Shown piece by piece: positions 49,284-62,522 of a stretch of 64,000 bases of DNA (its first letter is position 1; each line of letters starts with the position of its first letter). Below the pieces are notes generated by a model. It was given only the letters and a program-made list of their open reading frames with translations, was not told the origin of the DNA and did no database searches. Both the position numbers and the translations under genes were made by a program. Origin of the DNA: Elusimicrobiota bacterium (GTDB lineage Bacteria; Elusimicrobiota; Elusimicrobia; UBA1565; UBA9628); contig JACRDN010000005.1 of NCBI GenBank assembly GCA_016218575.1, positions 124,001 to 188,000 of the forward strand, in the 5' to 3' direction.

Positions 49284-49870
49284 ATTCCGCCATGGCCGCC
49301 TCCGCGCCGCAATGCGCCGGCAGCGGAGTTTCCAACGCCAAGCTCGGCGTCTGGCTCTTCCTGGCCTCGGAGGTCATGCTTTTCGCGACCTTGTTCACCA
49401 CCTACCTGGTCCTGCGGCTAGGGTCGGCCTCCTGGCCGCGCGGCTGGGAAACCCTCAATGTGCCCTTGGCCATGATGAACACCTTCGTTCTCATCACCTC
49501 GAGCGTGACCATGGTCTTGGCCTATGCCAAGGCCGTGGAGCGGGATTTGGCGGGCTTTAGGAAGTTCATGGGGATCACGATACTGCTCGGGTTCGCCTTC
49601 CTCGCCGTCAAGTCCGTCGAGTACGGCACGAAGTTCCATCACCACCACTACCCCTCCACCAACATCTTTTTCGCGATCTACTTTACCATGACCGGCCTGC
49701 ATGGCCTTCATGTGATCGGCGGGATCATCGTCAACAGCGCGCTGTATTATTTGAGCGGCAAGGAGTGGGATCATCCTCTCTTTGTCGGGCGGGTCGAGGG
49801 GGCCGGCCTTTACTGGCACTTCGTCGACATCGTCTGGATATTTCTCTTCCCGGCCCTATACCTGCTATAA
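49280..49870 (+). CDS. coxC: cytochrome c oxidase subunit III
   Basis: A 196-residue five-helix subunit III, the short bacterial form. It starts SNAKLGVWLFLASEVMLFATLFTTYLVLR and ends WHFVDIVWIFLFPALYLL, both family signatures, with the FTMTGLHGLHVIGGI loop. The start overlaps the coxA stop (ATGA). Confidence 0.95.
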   Translation: MNSAMAASAPQCAGSGVSNAKLGVWLFLASEVMLFATLFTTYLVLRLGSASWPRGWETLNVPLAMMNTFVLITSSVTMVLAYAKAVERDLAGFRKFMGITILLGFAFLAVKSVEYGTKFHHHHYPSTNIFFAIYFTMTGLHGLHVIGGIIVNSALYYLSGKEWDHPLFVGRVEGAGLYWHFVDIVWIFLFPALYLL

Positions 49871-49872
49871 AC

Positions 49873-50223
49873 ATGAAGGGACACTCCCAAGCCGACGTGA
49901 AGCTTTACCTCGCGATATTCGGCGCGCTGATGGTGCTGACCGTCGTGACCGTCCTGGTCTCATACCTCCATCTCCCCATCGCGGCCGGCGTGGCCGTGGG
50001 CATGGCCATCGCCACGCTCAAGGCGGGGCTGGTGGCCGCGTTTTTCATGCACTTGAAGGGCGAGAGGATCGTCATCTATGGCCTGCTGGGCGTCACCATC
50101 TTCTTCATGTCCTTCCTTTTTTTGGCGCCCATCAAAGACAGCGTCTCCATCGCCGACCGCAGGGCCCGGATTGCGGTCTCTGTCGCCTCCGAGGAGAGCC
50201 CCTCCGAGACGCGCATTCGCTAG
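49873..50223 (+). CDS. coxD: cytochrome c oxidase subunit IV (COX4_pro type)
   Basis: A 116-residue protein with three membrane helices: VKLYLAIFGALMVLTVVTVL, then ATLKAGLVAAFFMHLKGER, a stretch typical of prokaryotic subunit IV/CtaF/CyoD-like proteins. I chose ATG at 49873, 2 bases after coxC. The tail is polar and ends at 50223. Confidence 0.85.
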   Translation: MKGHSQADVKLYLAIFGALMVLTVVTVLVSYLHLPIAAGVAVGMAIATLKAGLVAAFFMHLKGERIVIYGLLGVTIFFMSFLFLAPIKDSVSIADRRARIAVSVASEESPSETRIR

Positions 50224-50418
50224 ATGTCTCTCAAGAATTTCCATCTCTTTTTCATCTTGACAAGCCTGGCGCTGATGGGGTTTCTGGGCTATTGGTCGTT
50301 AGGCCAGCTCTCGCGCGGAGAGCTGGCCTGGATGATGGCGGGCTCGTCCGCCCTCGGCCTGAGCCTCGGGCTCTTCTATTTGCGATGGTTCATGCGAAGG
50401 CACAAGGAACTCTTATGA
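50224..50418 (+). CDS. small two-helix membrane protein in the oxidase operon
   Basis: A 64-residue protein with two hydrophobic helices (about 7-27 and 34-54) and a basic tail (RWFMRRHKELL). It starts right after the coxD stop. Small membrane proteins are common in oxidase operons; this one has no family name I can give. It overlaps the next gene by 4 bases. Confidence 0.65.
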   Translation: MSLKNFHLFFILTSLALMGFLGYWSLGQLSRGELAWMMAGSSALGLSLGLFYLRWFMRRHKELL

Positions 50419-50642
50419 AAAAGGCGCTCGCGCCAGCCGCGGTCCTGTGGCTTCTCTCGCCCGCCGCGGCTCACGCCTGCGCGGTCTGTTTTGGGCAGCC
50501 CCAGCAGAGCGGGCTGTTCCGCGGCCTCGGCTGGGGGCTCGTCGTCCTCTTGGGATTTACCTTCTCCATTCTGGGGGCCTTGGCCTGGACCATGTGGCGG
50601 ATCGAAAGAAACCGCGCGGCCAGCGAGGCCCGCTCCGCGTGA
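50415..50642 (+). CDS. small secreted/membrane protein with CAVC motif
   Basis: A 75-residue protein: signal-like N-terminus, HACAVCFGQPQQSGL immediately after it, then one membrane helix (GLGWGLVVLLGFTFSILGALAW). The paired Cys facing the periplasm could take part in copper or haem handling. Similar small CxxCFG proteins are seen near ctaA/ctaB in other phyla, from memory. Its start overlaps the previous stop (ATGA) and its stop overlaps ctaA (TGATG). Confidence 0.65.
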   Translation: MKKALAPAAVLWLLSPAAAHACAVCFGQPQQSGLFRGLGWGLVVLLGFTFSILGALAWTMWRIERNRAASEARSA

Positions 50643-51490
50643 TGCCCCCTCTTCCTCTTTGGATCCATCCCCTGGCGGAGCTCACCGCGGTTCTGGCTTT
50701 CTTCCTGATCCTAGCCGGAGGCCTGGTCACCTCGACGGGCTCGAGCCTGGCCGTTCCGGACTGGCCACTCTCCTTCGGCCAGTTTTTCCCGAGGATGGAA
50801 GGCGGAGTCTTCTTCGAGCACGGGCATCGCGTGATCGCAGGCCTGGTGGCGATTCTGGCCTGCGCCCTGGCCTTGGGACTGCGCCTCAAAGAAACTCGAG
50901 CTTGGGTCAAGAGCTTGGCTTACGCCGCCGCCGGCGCGATTTTGCTGCAGGCGCTTCTGGGAGGAATTACCGTGCTCTGGGGCCTGCCCCACCCGGTCTC
51001 GATTGCCCACGCCTGCCTCGGCCAGGCCGTGTTCTGCCTTCTTTTGGCTTTGGCGCAGGCGACGTCTCCGTGGTACGCGGGCTCTGCTCCCGAGCCCGCG
51101 GAAAGCGGCCTCTGGAAGGCGGGCGCCTGGGCGCTTGGGGCCGTCTACCTCCAGATTCTTTGGGGCGCCTTGGTGCGCCACGCCCGCTCGGGGTTGTGGC
51201 TGCATTTTCTCTGGGCCTTCGCCGCCTCGGCCACCCTTGGGAACCTCCTCTACCAGACCTGGGCCCGGGGCGGGGACCGCGCGGCCCTGGCCAGGCCCGC
51301 GCTTATGCTCGCTTTCCTTCTGCCCCTCCAGTGGTTTCTAGGTTTCGAGTCGTTTAGGGCCCGCTTCGTGCTGGACTTGGGGCGCGCCATCAACTTCTCG
51401 GCCGCTCTTACCGCCTGCCATGTGGCCGCGGGGGCCTTGATTCTGGGCACTTGCGTGATTTGGACCTTGCGGTCCCTGCGCCAGCCATGA
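50642..51490 (+). CDS. ctaA: haem A synthase CtaA
   Basis: A 282-residue eight-helix protein that oxidises haem O to haem A. The N-terminal repeat has GGLVTSTGSSLAVPDWPL and FEHGHRVIAG (His ligand); the second has the IAHACLGQAVF His, and another lies in TACHVAAGALIL. The two-fold repeat is visible. It starts inside the stop of the preceding gene and its stop overlaps ctaB (ATGA). Confidence 0.92.
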   Translation: MPPLPLWIHPLAELTAVLAFFLILAGGLVTSTGSSLAVPDWPLSFGQFFPRMEGGVFFEHGHRVIAGLVAILACALALGLRLKETRAWVKSLAYAAAGAILLQALLGGITVLWGLPHPVSIAHACLGQAVFCLLLALAQATSPWYAGSAPEPAESGLWKAGAWALGAVYLQILWGALVRHARSGLWLHFLWAFAASATLGNLLYQTWARGGDRAALARPALMLAFLLPLQWFLGFESFRARFVLDLGRAINFSAALTACHVAAGALILGTCVIWTLRSLRQP

Positions 51491-52329
51491 CCAAGGACAT
51501 TCTCGCGCTCTTCAAGGGCCGCATCGCCCTCATGGTGATGTCGACCTCCGGGCTTGGGTACTGGCTCTCGGGAGCCCGGGATGCGCGGCCGCTGCTCTGC
51601 CTGCTTGCCGGCACCGCCCTTTCCTCATGCGCCTGCGGCGTCCTCAATCAGTACCTGGAGCGCCGCGAGGACCGGCTCATGCGCCGCACGAGTTCCCGCC
51701 CCCTCCCCGCGGGCTCCGTAAAACCGGAGGCCGCTTTGGCCCTGGGCGGCGCGCTTTCGGCCGCCGGAATCGGCCTCCTGGCGGCGGGGGCGGGAGGCCT
51801 GGCGGCAGCCCTAACGGCTTTAACGTTGATTCTCTATTTGGGACTATACACACCGCTCAAAAAGATCACTCCCCATACTACTTGGCTGGGGGCCGCGGCC
51901 GGAGCCATGCCCCCATTGATCGGCTGGGCCGCAGGAATGGGCCATCTTGAGCCTCGCGCCTGGGCTCTGTTCGCGATCCAGTTCTTGTGGCAGATCCCAC
52001 ACTTTCTTTCCCTGTTTTGGATCTATCGCGAGGAGTACGCGGCCGCGGGCTTTCGCGTCATGCCGGTGGTCGATCCCAATGGAGGCCTGACGGCCTTCCA
52101 GATGGCGCTCCACTCCTTCACGGTGCTCTTGGCCAGTCTCTTCCCCCTATTCTTGGGTATGGCGGGGCTGGGCTACGCCATCGGAGCTTTGCTCTTAAGC
52201 ACGGCTTATCTGGGGCTTGGAATGCGCGCCAGTTGGACCTTGGCCGCCTTGGACACGCGCCGCCTGTTCATGGCCTCATTGGCCTATTTGCCTCTCCTGT
52301 TCGGAATGCTTTTGTTCGGAGGAGTTTAA
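51487..52329 (+). CDS. ctaB: protohaem IX farnesyltransferase CtaB
   Basis: A 280-residue UbiA-family prenyltransferase that attaches farnesyl to protohaem to give haem O. The NQYLERREDRLMRRTSSRPL stretch is the conserved N-D-x-x-M-x-R-T-x-x-RPL motif with the Asp residues binding Mg-diphosphate. A second site appears near FWIYREEYAAAGFRVMPV. I chose ATG at 51487, overlapping the ctaA stop. The di-haem cytochrome gene follows at once. Confidence 0.95.
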   Translation: MTKDILALFKGRIALMVMSTSGLGYWLSGARDARPLLCLLAGTALSSCACGVLNQYLERREDRLMRRTSSRPLPAGSVKPEAALALGGALSAAGIGLLAAGAGGLAAALTALTLILYLGLYTPLKKITPHTTWLGAAAGAMPPLIGWAAGMGHLEPRAWALFAIQFLWQIPHFLSLFWIYREEYAAAGFRVMPVVDPNGGLTAFQMALHSFTVLLASLFPLFLGMAGLGYAIGALLLSTAYLGLGMRASWTLAALDTRRLFMASLAYLPLLFGMLLFGGV

Positions 52330-53022
52330 ATGAGGTTGAAAACTTCCGCTTGTCTCGTGATCTTAGCCGCCGCGGCGCTGGCCGCCTGCCAGAGAGCCTC
52401 CTCTCCCGAAGCCAGAGGCCAGGCCTATTTCAACGCCTTGGGCTGCCGCCAATGCCATCAAGTCGGCGCGGTCGGCGGCTCCTACGGACCCAATCTGACT
52501 TTTATCGGTTTCAGAAAGAGCCCACAGTGGCTCGACGCCTGGCTCAAAAACCCGCATTCCTGGCGCAAGCAAACCGTCATGCCCAATTTCAACCTCAACC
52601 AGGAGATGCGTGCCGCTTTGGTGGCCTATCTATCCACCCAGAAGGGGCAGGCCTGGGAGGGCGGCCGACCCTGGAATCATCCTGAAATCCTCCAGGATCC
52701 GCTCAAGCGCGGGGAGATGATCTTCAATTTGGCGGGCTGTGTCGCCTGCCATGCCGAGAAGGGGCGCGGGGGCTATCCCAACAATAACGTGGTCGGGGGG
52801 CTCATCCCCTCCCTCACCAAGGTCGCGGAGGGCTACTCCAAGGAAGAACTGGAAAAGAAAATCGCGGGAGGCGTTTTCCCCGCTCCAGCCGACCCCAACG
52901 CTCCCCCGCCCATGATTTTTATGCCGAAATGGGCGGAGGTGTTGAAGCAAGACGAGATCTCGGCCGTGGCCGACTACTTGATTTCCCTCGCCCCCAAAAA
53001 AGGTCCGACTAGCGAGTGGTAA
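52330..53022 (+). CDS. di-haem cytochrome c lipoprotein, paralogue of the 45431 gene
   Basis: A 230-residue protein with a lipoprotein signal (ALAACQ), CRQCH and CVACH haem motifs, and the same block order as the gene at 45431: GGSYGPNLTFIGFRKSPQWLDAWL against GGSGGPDLTFVGFRHSKAWLEAWL, and GGYPNNNVVGG against GGFPNNNVAGG. It is the last gene of the oxidase operon, starting right after ctaB. Likely donates electrons to CuA. It overlaps the next minus-strand gene by 14 bases. Confidence 0.9.
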   Translation: MRLKTSACLVILAAAALAACQRASSPEARGQAYFNALGCRQCHQVGAVGGSYGPNLTFIGFRKSPQWLDAWLKNPHSWRKQTVMPNFNLNQEMRAALVAYLSTQKGQAWEGGRPWNHPEILQDPLKRGEMIFNLAGCVACHAEKGRGGYPNNNVVGGLIPSLTKVAEGYSKEELEKKIAGGVFPAPADPNAPPPMIFMPKWAEVLKQDEISAVADYLISLAPKKGPTSEW

Positions 53023-53883: not shown

Positions 53884-55251
53884 TCATTTGATCCTAGCAA
53901 ATAATCTCAGCAAGCTCCCTCCCCAGGCAAGGAGGATGCCTTTCTCCGGCGCGGCCCGGGGGAGAGCCTGGGCGAGCTTCAGGTAAAACCGCCCGGCGTC
54001 CGCGTTAAGCGCTGGGATGAGAACCCCATCTCCCGGCCGGTCCCGCAATCCCCGCGAGACGGGGTCGGCGAGATGTCTCTCGGCTCCCCGAAAGATGGCA
54101 ACGCATGCCTTGAGATAGGCGGGGTCTCCGGTCCGCTGGTATCCGGTGAGAAATGCCTCCCCCATGGCCGTTTGGTCTTGGAGAAAACAAGAGGCCGGCC
54201 CCCCGAGACGGTGAACAACACAGCCCCCCAAGAGGTCTTCTTGGCGCCAGCGCCGCAAGGTCTTGAGGGCCTGCTCGCGGTCCTGCCCCCGGGCATGGGG
54301 CGAGGCGAGAACGCTTGCCGCCATGGCCGCGTTGGGGGCCGCGAAGAGGCGCTTGTCCACGGCGGGAATTCCCAAACCCCGGCGCTTGGCCTCGGGGAGG
54401 GAGAAATAATAGCGCCCCTCCACGATCCGGCCGTCCGGCCGCAGGAGCTCCCCGGTTTGGGCGTTGAAATAACCTCCCGCAGGGGCTGAAAGGAAATGCC
54501 GCACATAAGAAAGCGCTCTGGAGGCTCTCTGGGGTTCTGATTCGGCCTCCAAAGTGCGGGCCTGATCTGCCAGCAATTTCTCGTATTCCACCGCCGACCT
54601 ATGAACCCCGCCCCAGACCGGATCCTCAGGACCCAAGACGGCAGAGTCCAGAGGAGGGCGAAAGCGCGCGCCCTCGCGGCGCTTCTTAAGCGCCGCGTCA
54701 ATGGCCGCGGGATTTCTGCGGTAAGCCGCCTCCAATGCCCTGGCCCAGTTGAGGAAAAGCCCGGGCGAGCCCGCGGCCGAGGCCCCGAGAACCTCTCCGG
54801 AGGGCGTGATGAGGGCGAGGCTTGCGCGAAGGCCGGCGCCGAAGCGCAGCTGCAGGTCCGGTCTTTCGTCGAGGTCTTCCTTCACGGCAATGGCGCGACC
54901 CTCGATCCATGACTCAACGCGGGAATCGTTGAAGACTTCCTCCTGCACCTGGGAAGCCCGCGACGACGGGCTTGCCAGGTGCAGGAGAATGAGGCAGTTT
55001 CGTTTTCGTGCTTCCTCAAGAACCTCAGAAGTTAAGGAGCGCCATCTCATTTCGGAATGCTTCGCAATTCTTACCACCGGCCCGCCTGACGGCGGGCCTA
55101 GCCGCCGCCAATGGCCAAAGAAAAGCGGCGGCATACTGCCCCCCGGCCCGAAGGCGAGATAGGCCGCGGCCAAAGCGAAGGCTGTGATCATGAGGCCGAG
55201 CATCATCATGACCCGGCGGTGGATTTCCTTGCCCCGCGCCGGATCCTTCAT
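53884..55251 (-). CDS. DUF255-related protein without the CxxC motif
   Basis: A 455-residue protein. A membrane helix (about 15-35) precedes a thioredoxin-like stretch ([31 protein letters not shown]) that aligns by eye to the DUF255 domain of the next gene, but the CHWCH site is replaced by SPSSRAS. The rest follows the alpha/alpha-barrel pattern of the DUF255/YyaL family. The start overlaps the stop of the upstream paralogue (ATGA). Likely an anchored, redox-inactive partner of the other protein. Confidence 0.7.
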
Positions 55252-57269
55252 GCCTTGGGAAGCAATGCGTCGAGAGTTTTTCTCAAGAGAGCGGCGTCCA
55301 TGATGGGAAGTTCGCAGACTCCCCCCGCGCAAATGTAGATGAGCGTCTTGCCGTCCTTGGGCGCAAAAGCCTCGGGAAAGGGCATGTGCCGGGCGAGGGC
55401 CGTGATCTTCTCCGGCAAAAAGCGGGAACGTATGGTCCGGAGCATTTCCTCGTAGCCGGGCATCCCGGGAGCGCCCGCGATCACGATCTGCCGTGGCTTC
55501 GAGAGATGGAAGCTTAGAGCCGAGAGCATGGCCGCCAAGGACAGGGGGCGCCGCTCCATAAGCGGGCCGAAGCGCCGAAGGGTTTTCTCCGCCGCCTCCA
55601 GGAAGTCCTTACGGCGGGTAAACTGATGGAGGCGCAGAAGGTTCAAGGCGCCAATAGAGCTGGCGCTAGGCTCCACGTTGTCGGAGTCGTCCATGGCGCG
55701 CAGGATGAGGTTCTTATCGTGGCCCTCGGCCGTCAAATAAAATCCTCCCTGATCGGCTAGGAACAGGCGGTTTTGCTCCTCGGCGAGCGCCATGGCCCAG
55801 TCTAGCCACGAGTGGTCGAAGTCCGCCTCGTAAAGATCGAGCAGGCCCTGGGCGAGGAAGGCGTAATCGTCGGCCATCGCCGGCACCCCGGCCTCCCCTC
55901 GCCAACGCCGCCAAAGGTGCTTGGAGTCTGAATCGTAGAGGCGCTTGCGGATGAAGCCCGCGGCGACCTGGGCTGCCGCGAGATACTGGGGCTCCTCAAG
56001 AATCAGCCAGGCCTTGGCGAAGGCCGATATGGCGAGCCCGTTCCAGGAGACGAGGACTTTGTCGTCCAGCCCCGGCCGAGGCCTGGCGGCGCGGGCGGCC
56101 AATAGCCTGGCCTTGGCCTGGCCAAGGTCGGGGCGGGGTGAGGATGGCCCGGCATGGAGGATACGTTTGCCCGAGGGCTCGACTCCGAAATATCGGATGA
56201 AAGGCTCCGTGTCCGCTCCCAGAACGTTTCGCAGCTCCACTTCGCTCCAAAGATAAAACGCCCCCTCCTCTTTACGCCCGGTTTCAGGCTCTAGGCTATC
56301 GGCGTCCTCGGCGGAGAAAAATCCCCCCTCGGAATGGCGCATGTCGCGCAGGAGATAGTCCAAAGTTTCCCGCGCCACCAAGGCCATTTCGGGATCGCCG
56401 CTGACCTGGAAGGCCTCCAAATAGACGGCGGCCAGCTGGGCGTTGTCGTAAAGCATCTTCTCGAAATGGGGCACGCGCCACTCGGCGTCCGTGGAGTAGC
56501 GATGGAATCCCCCCCCGATCTGGTCGCATATCCCTCCCCGGGCCATGCGGCGCAAGGTTACGAGGCAAAGGTCGAGAGCTTCCCTGTTCCCCGTGCGCGC
56601 GTAGTACCTGAGGAGGAAGTGGTGGTAGACCGGCATGGGAAACTTGGGAGCGCTGCCGAAGCCCCCGTGCTCGGGGTCGAAACTTCCCCGGTAGGCCGCC
56701 AAAGCTCTGTCCAGCCATTCGGCGCGGAGTTCCGAGGGCTTCGCCTCCCCGGCCACGTAAGCCCCGACCGCCGCGGTGAGGGAGCCGGCGTCCTTCTCTA
56801 AGTCAGCCCGCTGGGTGCGCCAAAGCTCGGCGATGCGCTCAAGGAGCCGGGCAAATCCCGGCTGGCCCCGGCGCGGCTCCGGGGGAAAGTATGTCCCGCC
56901 GTAAAAAGGCTTGAGCTCGGGCGTCAAGAAGACGTTCAAGGGCCAGCCCCCCTGCCCGGTCATGGCCTGCACCGCGGTCATGTATATCTTGTCCACGTCC
57001 GGGCGCTCCTCGCGGTCGAGCTTGATGGAGATAAACCACTTGTTCATGAGCCCGGCGATGCCGGGATCCTCGAAGCTTTCCTGCTCCATGACGTGGCACC
57101 AATGGCAAGTCGAGTAGCCGATGGATAGGAGGATGGGCTTCTCCTCTGCCCGGGCCTTGGCGAAGGCCTCTTCCCCCCAGGGATGCCAGTCCACGGGATT
57201 ATGCGCGTGCTGGAGAAGATACGGGCTCTTCTCGCGTATCAGGCGGTTGGGCGCGCCATGCTCTGTCAT
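55248..57269 (-). CDS. DUF255 thioredoxin-domain protein (YyaL/SSP411 family)
   Basis: A 673-residue protein of the YyaL/spermatogenesis-associated 20 family: N-terminal thioredoxin fold ([43 protein letters not shown] with the CHWCH site at about 50-54) joined to a six-hairpin glycosidase-like domain ([41 protein letters not shown]). Its biochemical role is not established. I chose ATG at 57269, which has an extended -10 box 7 bases upstream (leaderless). Cytoplasmic, no signal. Confidence 0.88.
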
Positions 57270-57372: not shown

Positions 57373-58332
57373 ATGGCTGTCGACTGGCGCTTCATCTTGA
57401 CCGGAGCCAAGAGGGTGGTGGATTCCAAGGCCATGTACGCCCAGGTGGTCGTGACCGACGACTGCAACCTCACCTGCGCCTACTGCGACGAGTACACCCC
57501 CGGAGCTCCCGTAATCCCCCTGGCCGTCCTAAAGGAACGGATAGACCGGCTCGACAGGCTCGGGGTCCAGGTCTACGACTTCCTGGGCGGGGAGACCTTG
57601 CTCCACCCCGAGATCGCGGCCCTCGTCGCCTACGTCAAGGCCAAGCGCGGGGGCTCGAACCTTGCCACCATCATCACCAACGGCTTTCTCCTGACCGAAA
57701 AGGCAATCCAAGAGCTCAACGCCGCGGGGCTCGACTTCATGCAGGTGTCCGTGGACTCCCTGGAGCCCACCGCGCTCTCGGACAAGAGCCTCAAGTCCAT
57801 CCTGCCCAGGCTCAAGCTTCTGGCCCGGGAGGCCAGGTTCAAGGTCGAGATACAAACCGTGCTCAACGAGGCGACCTTGGCCGACTACGCCCGGTTCCGG
57901 GAGGCCCTCAAGGATTTCCCCTTCACCTTCGGCTTCTCCGTCATGCACGGCAAGGGCGGGCAGATCGCCATCCGCGGCGAGAAGTACCTCGAGCTTTTGC
58001 GCAAGTACGGGGTCTTCGAGGGCGTCAATTTTTACGGCGAGCACTTGACGGAGATGCTGGCGGGCGACTTCTCTAGGCCCTGGAAATGCCTGGCGGGCTT
58101 CAAGTTCCTCTACGTCAACGCCAAGGGAGGCGTGCAGTGGTGCGCCCAGCAGCGCGACTACATGTACCCCTTGGACCAGCTCGACTCCAATATCCTCGCC
58201 CAGAACGACCGCCACAAGCCCTGCGAGGCCGGCTGTTCGCTAGGCTGCGTGCGCATGATCTCCCACACCTTGGGCGAGCCCATGAAGACCTTCGGCGCCA
58301 GCGTGAGGCTCGCCTTGGGCATGCGCCGGTAG
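57373..58332 (+). CDS. radical SAM protein with C-terminal Cys cluster
   Basis: A 319-residue radical SAM enzyme. The CxxxCxxC site is CNLTCAYC (Cys31, 35, 38), with the GGE motif in [13 protein letters not shown]. The C-terminal part (about 235-310) adds further cysteines ([26 protein letters not shown]), suggesting an auxiliary cluster like SPASM-type enzymes. The substrate is unknown. I chose ATG at 57373, next to the predicted transcript start; an earlier in-frame ATG at 57285 would include the promoter and palindrome. Confidence 0.85.
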
Positions 58333-58364
58333 GTCGTCTACCGCAAATAACCGCTCCGTACCTC

Positions 58365-58386
58365 ACCGGCCCCTTGCCCGGTTTTA
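58365..58386 (+). terminator. weak terminator after the radical SAM gene
   Basis: Stem ACCGG/CCGGT (58365-58369 and 58378-58382) with an 8-base loop, followed by TTTA. Short stem and short T-run. The T-rich end also forms the -10 region of the next gene, so it may only partly stop transcription. Confidence 0.35.
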
Positions 58387-58392
58387 TATAAT
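58387..58392 (+). promoter_or_regulatory. -10 box for the diiron oxygenase gene, leaderless
   Basis: TATAAT, 6 bases before the GTG start at 58399. The -35 match is poor. No ribosome site is seen between them, so a leaderless message starting at the GTG is predicted. Confidence 0.45.
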
Positions 58393-58398
58393 TATCCG

Positions 58399-59403
58399 GT
58401 GAAGAGGCTCGATCCGGACGACGAGCAGGCCCTGGCCAAGGTCTTGGAAAGGCAGAAAAGGCTTTCCTGGGATTTCGAGAAAGGCCTGCCCTGGGAGCGG
58501 GGCATAGACCTCGGGCGCTTTTTCGTCCCCCTCGATCAGGACAACCTGGTGTTCCCGGAGGCCTCCCACGAGCAAAGGCTCATCATCAGCCAGTACCTGG
58601 GTCTCGTGATCGCCCAGACCTTCTCCGAGATGGAGACGGCCCTCGTGCAGGCCAAGGAATTGGTATGGGAGAGGAACCTCGCCCTTTACCCGGTGGGCCC
58701 CGAATTCGAGGCCATGGGCGAACAGTTCTTCTCCGAGGAGGAAAAGCACTCCCGGGTGTTCAAGCGCTTCCTCGTGGCCTTCGCGGAGCAAACCGGCATC
58801 GAGCACAAGGACCTTCTGACCATACTCCCCACGGTGTCCGGGACCTTGCTCCACAGGACGCTTAAGCTAAACTCGCATTACGGCGGCCACGCCCTCTGGT
58901 GGGTCCTAACCTTGGTGGAGGAGGTCTCCATCCTCATCTACAAGCAGATGCAGCCCTTTAAAAAACAGCTCGACCCCCTCTATTTCGACATCCATCGCAG
59001 GCATTTCGAGGAGGAAATCCGCCACAATCCCTACTCCTATTGGATGCTCGAGCATCTCTACCGCCGGAACAAGTCCTGGGCCAACGTCTTCTGGCGCAAG
59101 ACCGATCTGCCCCTGGCCCAAGCCCTCGAGGTCTCCTGGGCGTTCTCGTCGCTCTCCCGGATACGGAATACGTATTGGCTAAGGAAAAAGCACCCCTTTT
59201 ACGCATCCCTCTACTCCTGCATGCCCCTCTTGCGCAAGCTCTCCCCCATCGAGATCATCCGCCGCCTCTTCGTGGCGGCCCCCTTCGTGAGCCTGCTGCT
59301 CAACCCCAACTACCACCACGACTACCAGGGCTTGGTGGAAAGGCTCCGGGCCCTGCGCATTCCCACGCCCAAGCCCCAGCCCCTGCCTCTGAGCGCGGAC
59401 TGA
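58399..59403 (+). CDS. AurF-type diiron oxygenase
   Basis: A 334-residue helical protein with the ligand set of AurF-like diiron N-oxygenases: Glu79, Glu114-x-x-His117 (SEEEKH), Glu174/175 (LVEEVS), and His202-x3-Glu206-x2-His209 (RRHFEEEIRH). The spacings (35 between the first two Glu, 60 to the third, then the H-x3-E-x2-H block) match those I recall for AurF. Such enzymes use O2 and two irons to oxidise amines or C-H bonds. The start is GTG at 58399. Its stop overlaps the next gene (TGATG). The substrate is unknown. Confidence 0.82.
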   Translation: MKRLDPDDEQALAKVLERQKRLSWDFEKGLPWERGIDLGRFFVPLDQDNLVFPEASHEQRLIISQYLGLVIAQTFSEMETALVQAKELVWERNLALYPVGPEFEAMGEQFFSEEEKHSRVFKRFLVAFAEQTGIEHKDLLTILPTVSGTLLHRTLKLNSHYGGHALWWVLTLVEEVSILIYKQMQPFKKQLDPLYFDIHRRHFEEEIRHNPYSYWMLEHLYRRNKSWANVFWRKTDLPLAQALEVSWAFSSLSRIRNTYWLRKKHPFYASLYSCMPLLRKLSPIEIIRRLFVAAPFVSLLLNPNYHHDYQGLVERLRALRIPTPKPQPLPLSAD

Positions 59404-60272
59404 TGATCACCTTAGCCGGGACGGCCGCCAAAAGCACCCGCTTTCGAGAATTAAAGACCGCCTGGCTCGACAACGACAACGCGGCAGGAGAGATACTTCT
59501 CTTCATCCACGGCTACCTGGACACGCCCGCCACTTGGAGCCCCCAGGCCGCGGCCTTCGCGGACAAATACCGCGTGATTCTCCCCTTCGCCCGCGGGGTG
59601 GGCCCCTCCGAGCCCCCCAAGGACCTCCGGCGCTACGGGGCTTACTCCATTCTCCTCGACCACCTCGAGCTCTTGCGGGCCGTGGATCCGGCGGGAGAAA
59701 GGCCCATCCACGTGGTGGGCCACGACGTCGGAGGCGTGCACGCCTGGATGCTCGCCTGCCACCCCCACCCCCGCATCAAGACCGTCACCATTCTCAACAG
59801 CGCCCACCCCAGGCAGTACCTGCGGCGCCTGCTCTGGCCGCGCCAGCTCTTCAAAAGCTGGTACATGGGGGCCTTCCAGGTGCCCTACGTCTGCGAGGCC
59901 CTCCTTTGGCTCTTCCATAAGGAGTTTTTTAAAATCCTTTCGCGCGAGGGCTGGGAGCCCCCCCAAGGGGAGCTGTCCTTGGATGACTTCGAGGGGGCCG
60001 TCATCAACGCCATGAACCAGTATCGGCAATTCGTGCGCGACATCCCCCATTTCATGAAGGAGAAGGCCAAGCCCGTCCAGGTCCCGGTCCTGGTCATATC
60101 AAGCGAGCAGGACCGCTATCTGGAGGCTCCCACGGCCCTGGAGCTTAAGGACATCGCGGCCAAGCCCACCCTCCGGGTCGTGCGCGGCAAGCATTGGCTC
60201 CACCGCGAGCAGCCGGAGCGCATCAACCGTCTCTTGGCGGAGTTTTGGGCTCAAAACCACGGATCGGTATGA
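59403..60272 (+). CDS. alpha/beta hydrolase with Asp nucleophile (epoxide-hydrolase-like)
   Basis: A 289-residue alpha/beta hydrolase: oxyanion HG (36-37) in LLFIHGYLDTPATW, nucleophile elbow VVGHDVGG with Asp108, acid Asp in SSEQDRYLEAP and base His264 or 267 near the C-terminus. Asp in place of Ser at the elbow marks epoxide hydrolases and haloalkane dehalogenases, and the GHDxGG form favours the former. The start overlaps the stop of the diiron oxygenase gene; the stop overlaps the next gene (ATGA). It may open an epoxide made by the neighbour. Confidence 0.88.
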   Translation: MITLAGTAAKSTRFRELKTAWLDNDNAAGEILLFIHGYLDTPATWSPQAAAFADKYRVILPFARGVGPSEPPKDLRRYGAYSILLDHLELLRAVDPAGERPIHVVGHDVGGVHAWMLACHPHPRIKTVTILNSAHPRQYLRRLLWPRQLFKSWYMGAFQVPYVCEALLWLFHKEFFKILSREGWEPPQGELSLDDFEGAVINAMNQYRQFVRDIPHFMKEKAKPVQVPVLVISSEQDRYLEAPTALELKDIAAKPTLRVVRGKHWLHREQPERINRLLAEFWAQNHGSV

Positions 60273-61093
60273 ACCCCCTCAAGGCTCTGCTTTACCGAGG
60301 CAAAAAGGGACGAACTCTCGACCGCGAGGTCCTGGAGGGACTGGCGCGCTCCCAGGACCTTGCTTACCGCTGCGCCAAGGCCATCGCCCGGGAGATGCGC
60401 GAGGGCTGGAGCGAGGCCCAGACCGCGCGCCTCATGGATGTATGGCTGGCCGACCACGGGGTTCGGGTCTTCTTCCACAAGTCCTTCGCCTGGTTCGGGG
60501 AGAGAAGTAGATTCGACGGAATGCGGCGCTGGGCCGATTTCCTGCCCGGAAAGCGCGCCCTAGGTTCAGGAGACTGCGTGATCTTGGACACTGCCCCGGT
60601 CTTCAAAGGCTATCCCGGAGACATCGGCTACTCTTTCTCGCTCGGACCCGACCCGGAGCTGGGCAAGGCCGCTGCGGTCCTGGAGGAGCTGCGTGCGACC
60701 GTCCTGCGGTTGTTCGAGCAGGCCGTGAAAAATCCGGGCCGGACCACGGGAGGCGACATCGCCTCCGCCATAGCCCGCCATATCGCGGCCGCGGGCTATG
60801 AACCCGCCCATCATAAATATCCCGGCGGGGTCCTGGGGCACCGGCTCCATCCCATGCCAGAGTCCCGGCGCCCTCCCACCTTCATTCCGTTCAGCTGGCA
60901 AGCCTTGAGCCGCTTCCTGAGGGAGGGATTGCTCCCGGATCTTCTCAATGAGGAGCACCGCGGCGAGCTGTGGGGAGCCTGGGCCATCGAGCCGCACTTG
61001 GGAGGCAAGGGTTTCGGGGCCAAATTCGAGGAGATACTGGTCGTGGAGGAAACGGGCGTCCGCTGGCTTTCCGAGGAAATACCTTGGCGCTAG
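60269..61093 (+). CDS. M24-fold (methionine aminopeptidase/creatinase-like) protein
   Basis: A 274-residue protein of the pita-bread fold. The five metal ligands expected for M24 enzymes can be placed: Asp107 (VILDTAP), Asp118 (YPGDIGYSF), His191 (GVLGHRLH), Glu241 (AIEPHLG) and Glu255 (FEEILVVEE). It lacks the usual pre-proline peptidase N-domain and is small. It may be a metalloenzyme in the operon's pathway rather than a housekeeping peptidase. Start overlaps the hydrolase stop. Confidence 0.82.
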   Translation: MNPLKALLYRGKKGRTLDREVLEGLARSQDLAYRCAKAIAREMREGWSEAQTARLMDVWLADHGVRVFFHKSFAWFGERSRFDGMRRWADFLPGKRALGSGDCVILDTAPVFKGYPGDIGYSFSLGPDPELGKAAAVLEELRATVLRLFEQAVKNPGRTTGGDIASAIARHIAAAGYEPAHHKYPGGVLGHRLHPMPESRRPPTFIPFSWQALSRFLREGLLPDLLNEEHRGELWGAWAIEPHLGGKGFGAKFEEILVVEETGVRWLSEEIPWR

Positions 61094-61911
61094 CCTTGGC
61101 CGGAAAAAAAGCGGTGGTGACCGGTGCGGCCGGGGGCCTTGGTCGGGCTCTCGTCTTCGAGCTCCTGCAGGAGGGGGCGAAAGTCTTGGCCGTGGATAAG
61201 AATGAAAAGGGACTCGCGGCTCTCGCTAGAGAGGCGGAGGGTAGGGCGTTCTCTCTGGCTACTCTTCAAGCCGACGTTTCGGCCAAGGAATCCTATTTAA
61301 CGACTCTTACCAGCAGCTGCGGCGAAAAGGACCCGCCGCAGCTGTTCATCAACAACGCCGGGCTTGCCCGAATAGAGGCGCTGGAGAAAATGGACCTCGC
61401 CCATTTTGAGGAGATCATGAGGGTCAACCTCCTCGGGACGGTTTACGGCAGCCATTTCGCGCTTTCTCGGATGAAGCCGGCGGGAGAGGGGCTCATCGTG
61501 AACGTCTCCTCCATGGCGGGGCACATCCCCGCCGGGTTCATGACCGCTTACGCCGCGTCCAAGTTCGGGGTCGTTGGCTTTACGAGGGCTCTCCAGGCCG
61601 AGCTGCGCCTTTCCCGCAGTCCGGTGAGGGCCTGCCTGGTTTCCCCTGGATTCTTCGACACGCCTCTCATGCGGCAGAAAAACGCGCCATTCCCGAAATT
61701 CCTCGAGTGGATGGTGGCCCGGCCGGAAGCCGTAGCGGCGCGGATCGTGAACGGGATAAAAAAAGGAAAAGCGGAAATTTACCCGGATTTAAGCGCGAAA
61801 ATCATGAGAAACCTCCACAGGGTCTCTCCAGCCCTGGCCCTGCGGGCTTCCCGCCTGCTCGCGGCCAGGTCTTTGGCCGAGGCCCTGGGCCTCACGCCCA
61901 TCTCCTTTTAA
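61084..61911 (+). CDS. short-chain dehydrogenase/reductase
   Basis: A 275-residue classical SDR: TGAAGGLGR (NAD(P)-binding) near residue 12, INNAGLAR, NVSSMAGHIPAG with the catalytic Ser, and Tyr156/Lys160 (YAASK). No ATG fits; TTG at 61084 has GAGGA 6 bases upstream and overlaps the M24 gene by 10 bases. TTG at 61096 is a second choice. The C-terminal extension (MRNLHRVSPALALRASRLLAARS) may touch the membrane. Last gene of the operon. Confidence 0.88.
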   Translation: MALALAGKKAVVTGAAGGLGRALVFELLQEGAKVLAVDKNEKGLAALAREAEGRAFSLATLQADVSAKESYLTTLTSSCGEKDPPQLFINNAGLARIEALEKMDLAHFEEIMRVNLLGTVYGSHFALSRMKPAGEGLIVNVSSMAGHIPAGFMTAYAASKFGVVGFTRALQAELRLSRSPVRACLVSPGFFDTPLMRQKNAPFPKFLEWMVARPEAVAARIVNGIKKGKAEIYPDLSAKIMRNLHRVSPALALRASRLLAARSLAEALGLTPISF

Positions 61912-61922
61912 AGGAAGCGCGA

Positions 61923-62522
61923 CTACTTCTGCGCCTGGGCGTCCTTTGGGGCGGCTTTCCCTTCGATTTCAATCTCTATCTTCACGTCATCGCCCAGCAT
62001 AAGGCCCCCGTTGTCCAAGGTCTTGTTCCAGACGATCCCGAAATCCTTCCGGTGGAGCGTGCCCTCGGCCGAGAATCCGGCGCGCACGCCTCCCCAGGGG
62101 TCCTTGCCGATCTCCCCCATCTTTACCTCGAGGACAACCGGCTTGGTCACGCCGTGCATGGTAAGAGTGCCCGAGAGCTTCCCCTTTTTGCCGTCGAACA
62201 ACGACAGCTTCTTGCTTTTGAACTCCAGGAAGGGATGCTGGACCGCGTCGAAGAAATCCGGGCTTCTCAGGTGTCCGTCCCTTTTCTCGTTGCGGGTGTT
62301 TATGCTGGCGGCGTCTATCTTGGCCCAGGCCTTGGCGTCTCCGGGCTTCTTGGGGTCGAAGTCGAAGCTCCCCTCGAATCTGTCGAAGGCCCCTCCCACG
62401 TTGCCCACGAGATGATGTATTTTGAAGCGCACCTCGCTGTGGTCCGGGTCTATTTGGTATGTTTCTGCGCAGATGCGGGGCGCTGCCGCCGCCAGAAGAG
62501 CCAGAGCCAAGGCCGTTTTCAT
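61923..62522 (-). CDS. YceI-family periplasmic lipid-binding protein
   Basis: A 199-residue exported protein (signal ending ICAET) with the YceI lipocalin-like fold: YQIDPDHSEVRFKIHHLVGNVGGAFDRFEGSFDF, RDGHLRSPDFFDAVQHPFLEF, and HGVTKPVVLEVKMGEIGKDPWGG. YceI proteins bind polyprenoid chains such as octaprenyl groups. The ATG overlaps the stop of the permease gene (ATGA), so both are co-transcribed. A link to isoprenoid lipids is possible but is not shown by the sequence. Confidence 0.93.
   Translation of the reverse strand: MKTALALALLAAAAPRICAETYQIDPDHSEVRFKIHHLVGNVGGAFDRFEGSFDFDPKKPGDAKAWAKIDAASINTRNEKRDGHLRSPDFFDAVQHPFLEFKSKKLSLFDGKKGKLSGTLTMHGVTKPVVLEVKMGEIGKDPWGGVRAGFSAEGTLHRKDFGIVWNKTLDNGGLMLGDDVKIEIEIEGKAAPKDAQAQK

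Follow-up and report, generated by a model that had tools for sequence, protein, structure and literature searches.

Which of the adjoining enzyme genes near the end of this Elusimicrobiota sequence belong together, and what reaction sequence might they carry out? The sequence is a stretch of 64,000 nucleotides (the window), and all coordinates given here are positions in this whole stretch. The first-pass annotation had described an operon of five genes, encoding a radical SAM (rSAM) protein, an AurF-type diiron protein, an alpha/beta hydrolase (ABH), an M24-fold protein and a short-chain dehydrogenase/reductase (SDR). All five reading frames lie where it had placed them and are open, and each class is backed by Pfam (Radical_SAM 67.5 bits, Abhydrolase_1 69 bits, Peptidase_M24 65 bits, adh_short 155 bits, and the AurF family as described below). 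The last four genes form a unit, AurF–ABH–M24–SDR (58399-61911), the existence of which is near certain, and they very probably belong to one pathway.

A conserved four-gene unit

All four genes lie on the plus strand, with overlaps of 1, 4 and 10 bases between neighbours. The AurF-family (PF11583) diiron protein (58399..59403, 334 aa, GTG start) was assigned from Pfam, an 11-member alignment and a structure model. It is followed by the ABH of the epoxide-hydrolase type (59403..60272, 289 aa), assigned from solved relatives and residue conservation in 70 members. The single-domain M24 (pita-bread) protein (60269..61093, 274 aa) was assigned from Pfam, alignments and a model, and the classical SDR (61084..61911, 275 aa, TTG start) from Pfam and an alignment of 12.

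Searching plasmids with the M24 protein led to loci of Burkholderia, Embleya and Dietzia, in which a hydrolase–SDR fusion follows M24. An M24 alignment was scanned against a genome collection; the best 80 of at least 562 loci were taken. The order AurF–ABH–M24–SDR is complete and uninterrupted in eight other loci (L017, L019, L020, L021, L023, L024, L025 and L028), counting L020, in which a contig end cuts the AurF gene. Four more cases are cut or split. L026 ends after the M24 gene, L034 carries the two gene pairs about 6 kb apart, and in the genomes of L016 and L018 a contig break falls between the ABH and M24 genes, with AurF–ABH at the end of another contig. The carriers belong to Bdellovibrionota, Myxococcota/'Deltaproteobacteria' and Pseudomonadota. 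The proteins of the other operon loci are only about 27-47% identical to those of the window, so the gene order has long been maintained; the genes on either side vary from locus to locus. Moreover, the AurF profile was found in 12 of 32 M24-bearing genomes, which are exactly those with the operon architecture, and in none of the 20 others. Of the five-gene operon described earlier, four genes are thus conserved in order elsewhere, whereas the rSAM gene lies outside the unit.

Two loci show other combinations of related genes. One is a short contig of an operon-bearing genome (L116:3-1762, genome G353), with a further AurF-type gene that has diverged (27% identity) and overlaps another hydrolase gene; neither M24 nor SDR accompanies this pair there. 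The other is an Acidobacteria contig from a genome without an AurF match (L022:72-2491), where an M24 relative is preceded by two cytochrome P450 genes, which places M24 near an oxygenase again.

Active sites and a candidate pathway

The diiron protein of the window matches the Pfam AurF model with 38.0 bits against a cut-off of 29.6, and 10 of 11 relatives also match. Its seven ligands are E79, E114xxH117, E174 and H202xxxE206xxH209. Across the 11-member family alignment, E79 is nearly invariant and the other six, E114, H117, E174, H202, E206 and H209, fully so. The ligands are spaced by 35, 3, 57, 28, 4 and 3 residues; those of AzoC, a characterised AurF relative (E102, E137, H140, E198, H225, E229 and H232) are spaced by 35, 3, 58, 27, 4 and 3 (PMC6783550, PMC8840469). 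Both the alignment and the comparison with AzoC confirm the seven-ligand set with AurF-like spacing noted in the first-pass annotation. An AlphaFold2 model (pLDDT 85) places the ligands on four core helices (57-84, 101-132, 165-190 and 193-209). A structural comparison with AurF had also been proposed there, and among the Foldseek matches listed for the model CmlI has the highest TM-score (0.58/0.66), with weak E-values. The protein resembles AurF, CmlI and AzoC in family match, ligand set and spacing, and helical fold, and differs from them in reaching only 38 bits with the Pfam model and in its gene company. Judged by these residues, the predicted diiron active site is intact. No useful match for the protein was found in NCBIfam or by phmmer against the PDB, the AurF family profile found nothing real in the PDB, and a plasmid search with the protein gave zero matches.

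The catalytic set of the ABH comprises the nucleophile D108, D237, H264 and the lid tyrosines Y154 and Y207. In epoxide hydrolases, the two lid tyrosines activate the oxirane. Among 70 relatives, split and fused, D108, Y154, Y207 and H264 never vary, and D237 is present in 69, with E in the remaining one. The nearest solved relatives are epoxide hydrolases, with catalytic residues aligned (5ng7, E 4e-46). Asp108, which had been proposed as a nucleophile like that of epoxide hydrolases, indeed stands invariant at the nucleophile position. The ABH is predicted to be of the epoxide-hydrolase type with its active site intact.

The M24 protein, modelled as a pita-bread fold (pLDDT 88), matches prolidase and methionine aminopeptidase folds and shares with these enzymes the five metal ligands (D107, D118, H191, E241 and E254), which are invariant in the alignments. 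It differs from them in having no N-terminal domain. In the alignments, moreover, no second histidine is conserved at the spacing usual in peptidases (GHGIGxxxxH), a position at which the profile alignment to 2zsg is ambiguous. On these grounds a non-peptide substrate is likely, and the protein may act on a non-peptide bond, either hydrolysing or cleaving it. The DMSP lyase DddP and creatinase are further M24 enzymes.

The SDR carries the TGxxxGxG motif and, in the alignment of 12, the active site N115, S143, Y156 and K160. All 12 of these SDRs have Asp38 where the second beta strand ends. An aspartate at this position marks a preference for NAD, which usually means oxidation. Because the NAD-type Asp38 is invariant, oxidation is favoured over reduction, and the reductive role previously given to the SDR is probably wrong.

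A precedent for the hydrolase and SDR pair is EphD (Rv2214c), a mycobacterial hydrolase–SDR fusion that opens 9,10-cis-epoxystearic acid and whose overproduction lowers epoxymycolates in cells (PMC7998700). The ABH and the SDR correspond to its two halves, and each matches the fusion model PRK05855/NF004514, with 122.7 and 127.4 bits, respectively, both far below the cut-off of 455. They differ from EphD in being separate genes with M24 between them and in having no mycolic acid context. Given the activity of EphD, the pair has a precedent in lipid epoxides. In L025, a fatty-acid desaturase gene lies just downstream of the operon. Together, the EphD precedent and this desaturase suggest a hydrophobic substrate. 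A DUF1302 gene near a more distant M24 gene (L033) is a weaker hint in the same direction.

Judged by sequence, the dimetal site of M24 and the active site of the SDR are intact as well. These assignments can be joined into a candidate pathway for the operon at 58399-61911, in which oxygenation to an epoxide would be followed by conversion to a diol and NAD-dependent oxidation. We hold this proposal, in which we infer the substrate and the M24 step, to have about an even chance of being right. The AurF-type protein would use O2 and electrons from a donor to form an epoxide on an unsaturated, hydrophobic, lipid-like substrate. In the ABH, Tyr154 and Tyr207 would activate the oxirane, and ring opening by way of an ester with Asp108 would give a diol; the SDR would oxidise a resulting hydroxyl with NAD+. 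Either ahead of these steps or following them, M24 could hydrolyse or cleave a bond in the substrate or in the product. The order suggested earlier, from oxidation through opening to the SDR, is plausible as a deduction, apart from the reduction at its end. Each enzyme family is known, but the combination is undescribed in the open-access literature searched; the earlier statement that no named pathway has this gene set agrees with that search, which is not proof of novelty. A reading as an olefin (Ole) pathway is not supported: no gene that resembles OleA or OleC was noticed beside the operon copies examined, where no search was aimed at them.

A second architecture and competing explanations

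M24 also occurs in a second architecture, in which it is followed by a fused hydrolase=SDR and often accompanied by a PF10118 protein (Streptomyces, Pseudomonas, Burkholderia, Dietzia, Embleya and others, from Actinobacteria and Proteobacteria). The open-access papers searched do not describe this cluster either. These clusters are alike to the window operon in their homologous M24, hydrolase and SDR, and probably in a homologous diiron protein. They are unlike it in that the hydrolase and SDR are fused, PF10118 replaces AurF, and a VanB-type reductase is sometimes present; a PDR/VanB reductase gene adjoins PF10118 in three actinobacterial loci. The fusion clade is well supported in the M24 tree (99/96, or 100/99 with two unassigned rows). 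The fusion provides a Rosetta-stone link for the pathway proposed above.

PF10118 is named a 'predicted metal-dependent hydrolase'. Its invariant residues E59, E89xxH92, E150 and H182xxxE186xxH189 mirror the AurF ligands. An hhalign comparison of the AurF group with PF10118 (E 1.2e-4, probability 55%) brings the ligand residues into register from E114 on, and two members of the AurF group match PF10118 in Pfam (best 2.2e-5). Of the genomes checked for PF10118, all six of the AurF type lacked it and eight of the nine remaining ones had it. There is moderate support, from sequence comparison, for the view that PF10118 and AurF proteins are homologous, interchangeable diiron oxygenases of one system. 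If so, the name of PF10118 is wrong and the family consists of diiron oxygenases, a re-annotation that is cheap, testable and touches many bacteria. We found nothing relevant on PF10118, COG3687, PRK05855 or the gene combination in the open-access literature, which is not proof of novelty. The gammaproteobacterial genome that carries L073 (G370) has fourteen PF10118 matches, a large expansion.

Elsewhere, M24, the EphD-like hydrolase-SDR fusion and PF10118 would do the same job as the operon of the window. More broadly, we tentatively propose, at clearly less than an even chance, a widespread pathway in which a lipid-like alkene would be epoxidised by an AurF-type or PF10118 protein and the product then passed to the dedicated hydrolase, the SDR and the dimetal M24 protein for processing. 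A gene set ordered alike across several phyla, and fused in Streptomyces, Pseudomonas and Burkholderia, must have a selectable function, and the hosts of the second architecture are genetically tractable for finding the substrate.

Several points weigh against the epoxide pathway and its extension. Characterised AurF relatives are chiefly N-oxygenases. The relation of PF10118 to AurF is only moderate at the hhalign probability given above, and many Streptomyces loci have no adjacent PF10118 gene. The Foldseek E-values of the diiron model are weak, with CmlI (0.013) in third place behind entries for ribonucleotide reductase R2; the fold assignment therefore stands on the ligands, the Pfam match and the TM-score jointly. 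No reductase gene lies inside the window operon. Finally, we infer the epoxide as well as the substrate, and M24 has no assigned reaction.

The first of these points is the basis of an N-oxygenation route, in which the AurF-type protein would oxidise an amine of a small specialised metabolite (to a hydroxylamine, nitroso or nitro group), while its tailoring or degradation would fall to the hydrolase, M24 and SDR. AurF, CmlI and AzoC are all N-oxygenases (PMC6783550), and the ligand set and the CmlI-like model fit such a role. The flanks of the operon loci listed, however, differ from each other and none resembled an assembly line, and the hydrolase retains a full set of epoxide-hydrolase residues that an amine route would not need. 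We consider N-oxygenation unlikely.

Next comes a function in detoxification or repair, another rather improbable account, in which the module would clear oxidised or electrophilic lipids such as stress epoxides and the diiron protein would be an oxidase or peroxide scavenger instead of the source of the epoxide. The action of the EphD-like hydrolase-SDR on lipid epoxides is a precedent for it. Dried Acinetobacter cells are shielded against oxidative stress by DtpC, a diiron oxidase-like protein of another kind (PMC13232832), but its fold is haem-oxygenase-like and not that of AurF. Nor does detoxification explain why the AurF gene is so strictly coupled to its three companions.

The radical SAM gene and the insertion site

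The rSAM gene (57373..58332, plus strand, 319 aa) ends 66 bases upstream of the AurF gene. Its orthologues, with 65-77% identity, occur in 23 of 56 other related genomes (24 of 57 with the window's own), and none of the 23 carries an AurF gene. The gene is absent from every other operon locus examined. Two relatives, G014 (L140) and G007 (L143), carry DUF255–rSAM–YceI in a row, and rSAM and YceI are direct neighbours there. The same genes flank the operon in the window, namely a DUF255/thioredoxin-like gene (55248..57269, minus strand, PF03190) and a YceI-like gene (61923..62522, minus strand, PF04264), both syntenic in the relatives. Because the resident genes that flank the block here adjoin in L140 and L143, the segment 58333..61922 between the rSAM and YceI genes, to which no strand is assigned, is read as an insertion. 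Synteny and distribution rule out the rSAM gene, a resident neighbour, as a member of the operon. A five-gene pathway in which rSAM feeds a modified precursor to the other four, as the first-pass annotation had it, is highly improbable: the gene is on the same strand and only 66 bases away, but it is resident in 23 relatives that have no operon, missing from the other operon loci, and directly beside YceI in two relatives. A hairpin is present between the rSAM and AurF genes; such sites are no commoner than chance in the region, and a terminator was not used as evidence.

The rSAM–YceI junction may be prone to insertions. In two relatives (L141 and L147), about 5 kb of other DNA lies between rSAM and YceI instead of the operon.

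Of the 341 genomes searched within the phylum, only 1 has M24 and a close AurF relative. Given this distribution and the empty site in relatives, horizontal gain is the simplest explanation, and the operon was probably acquired in this way. In the M24 tree, the window protein is nearest to the AurF-operon group, on a long branch and without firm support, so we name no donor.

A sister family within the same order gave weak AurF matches (L010/L011, the same as L111/L112), which were set aside because they belong to a different cluster and not to AurF–ABH–M24–SDR. There, a GH3-family (acyl-adenylate type) gene stands close to a more distant AurF-family gene (L111:4390-8038). The window's own genome holds a second weak AurF match (C17:176244), which scores below the cut-off and has no hydrolase, M24 or SDR relative nearby.

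Elsewhere in the window (49765-53022), translations read by eye suggest CtaA- and CtaB-like proteins of cytochrome oxidase assembly and a two-haem cytochrome c, which are consistent with an oxygen-respiring host.

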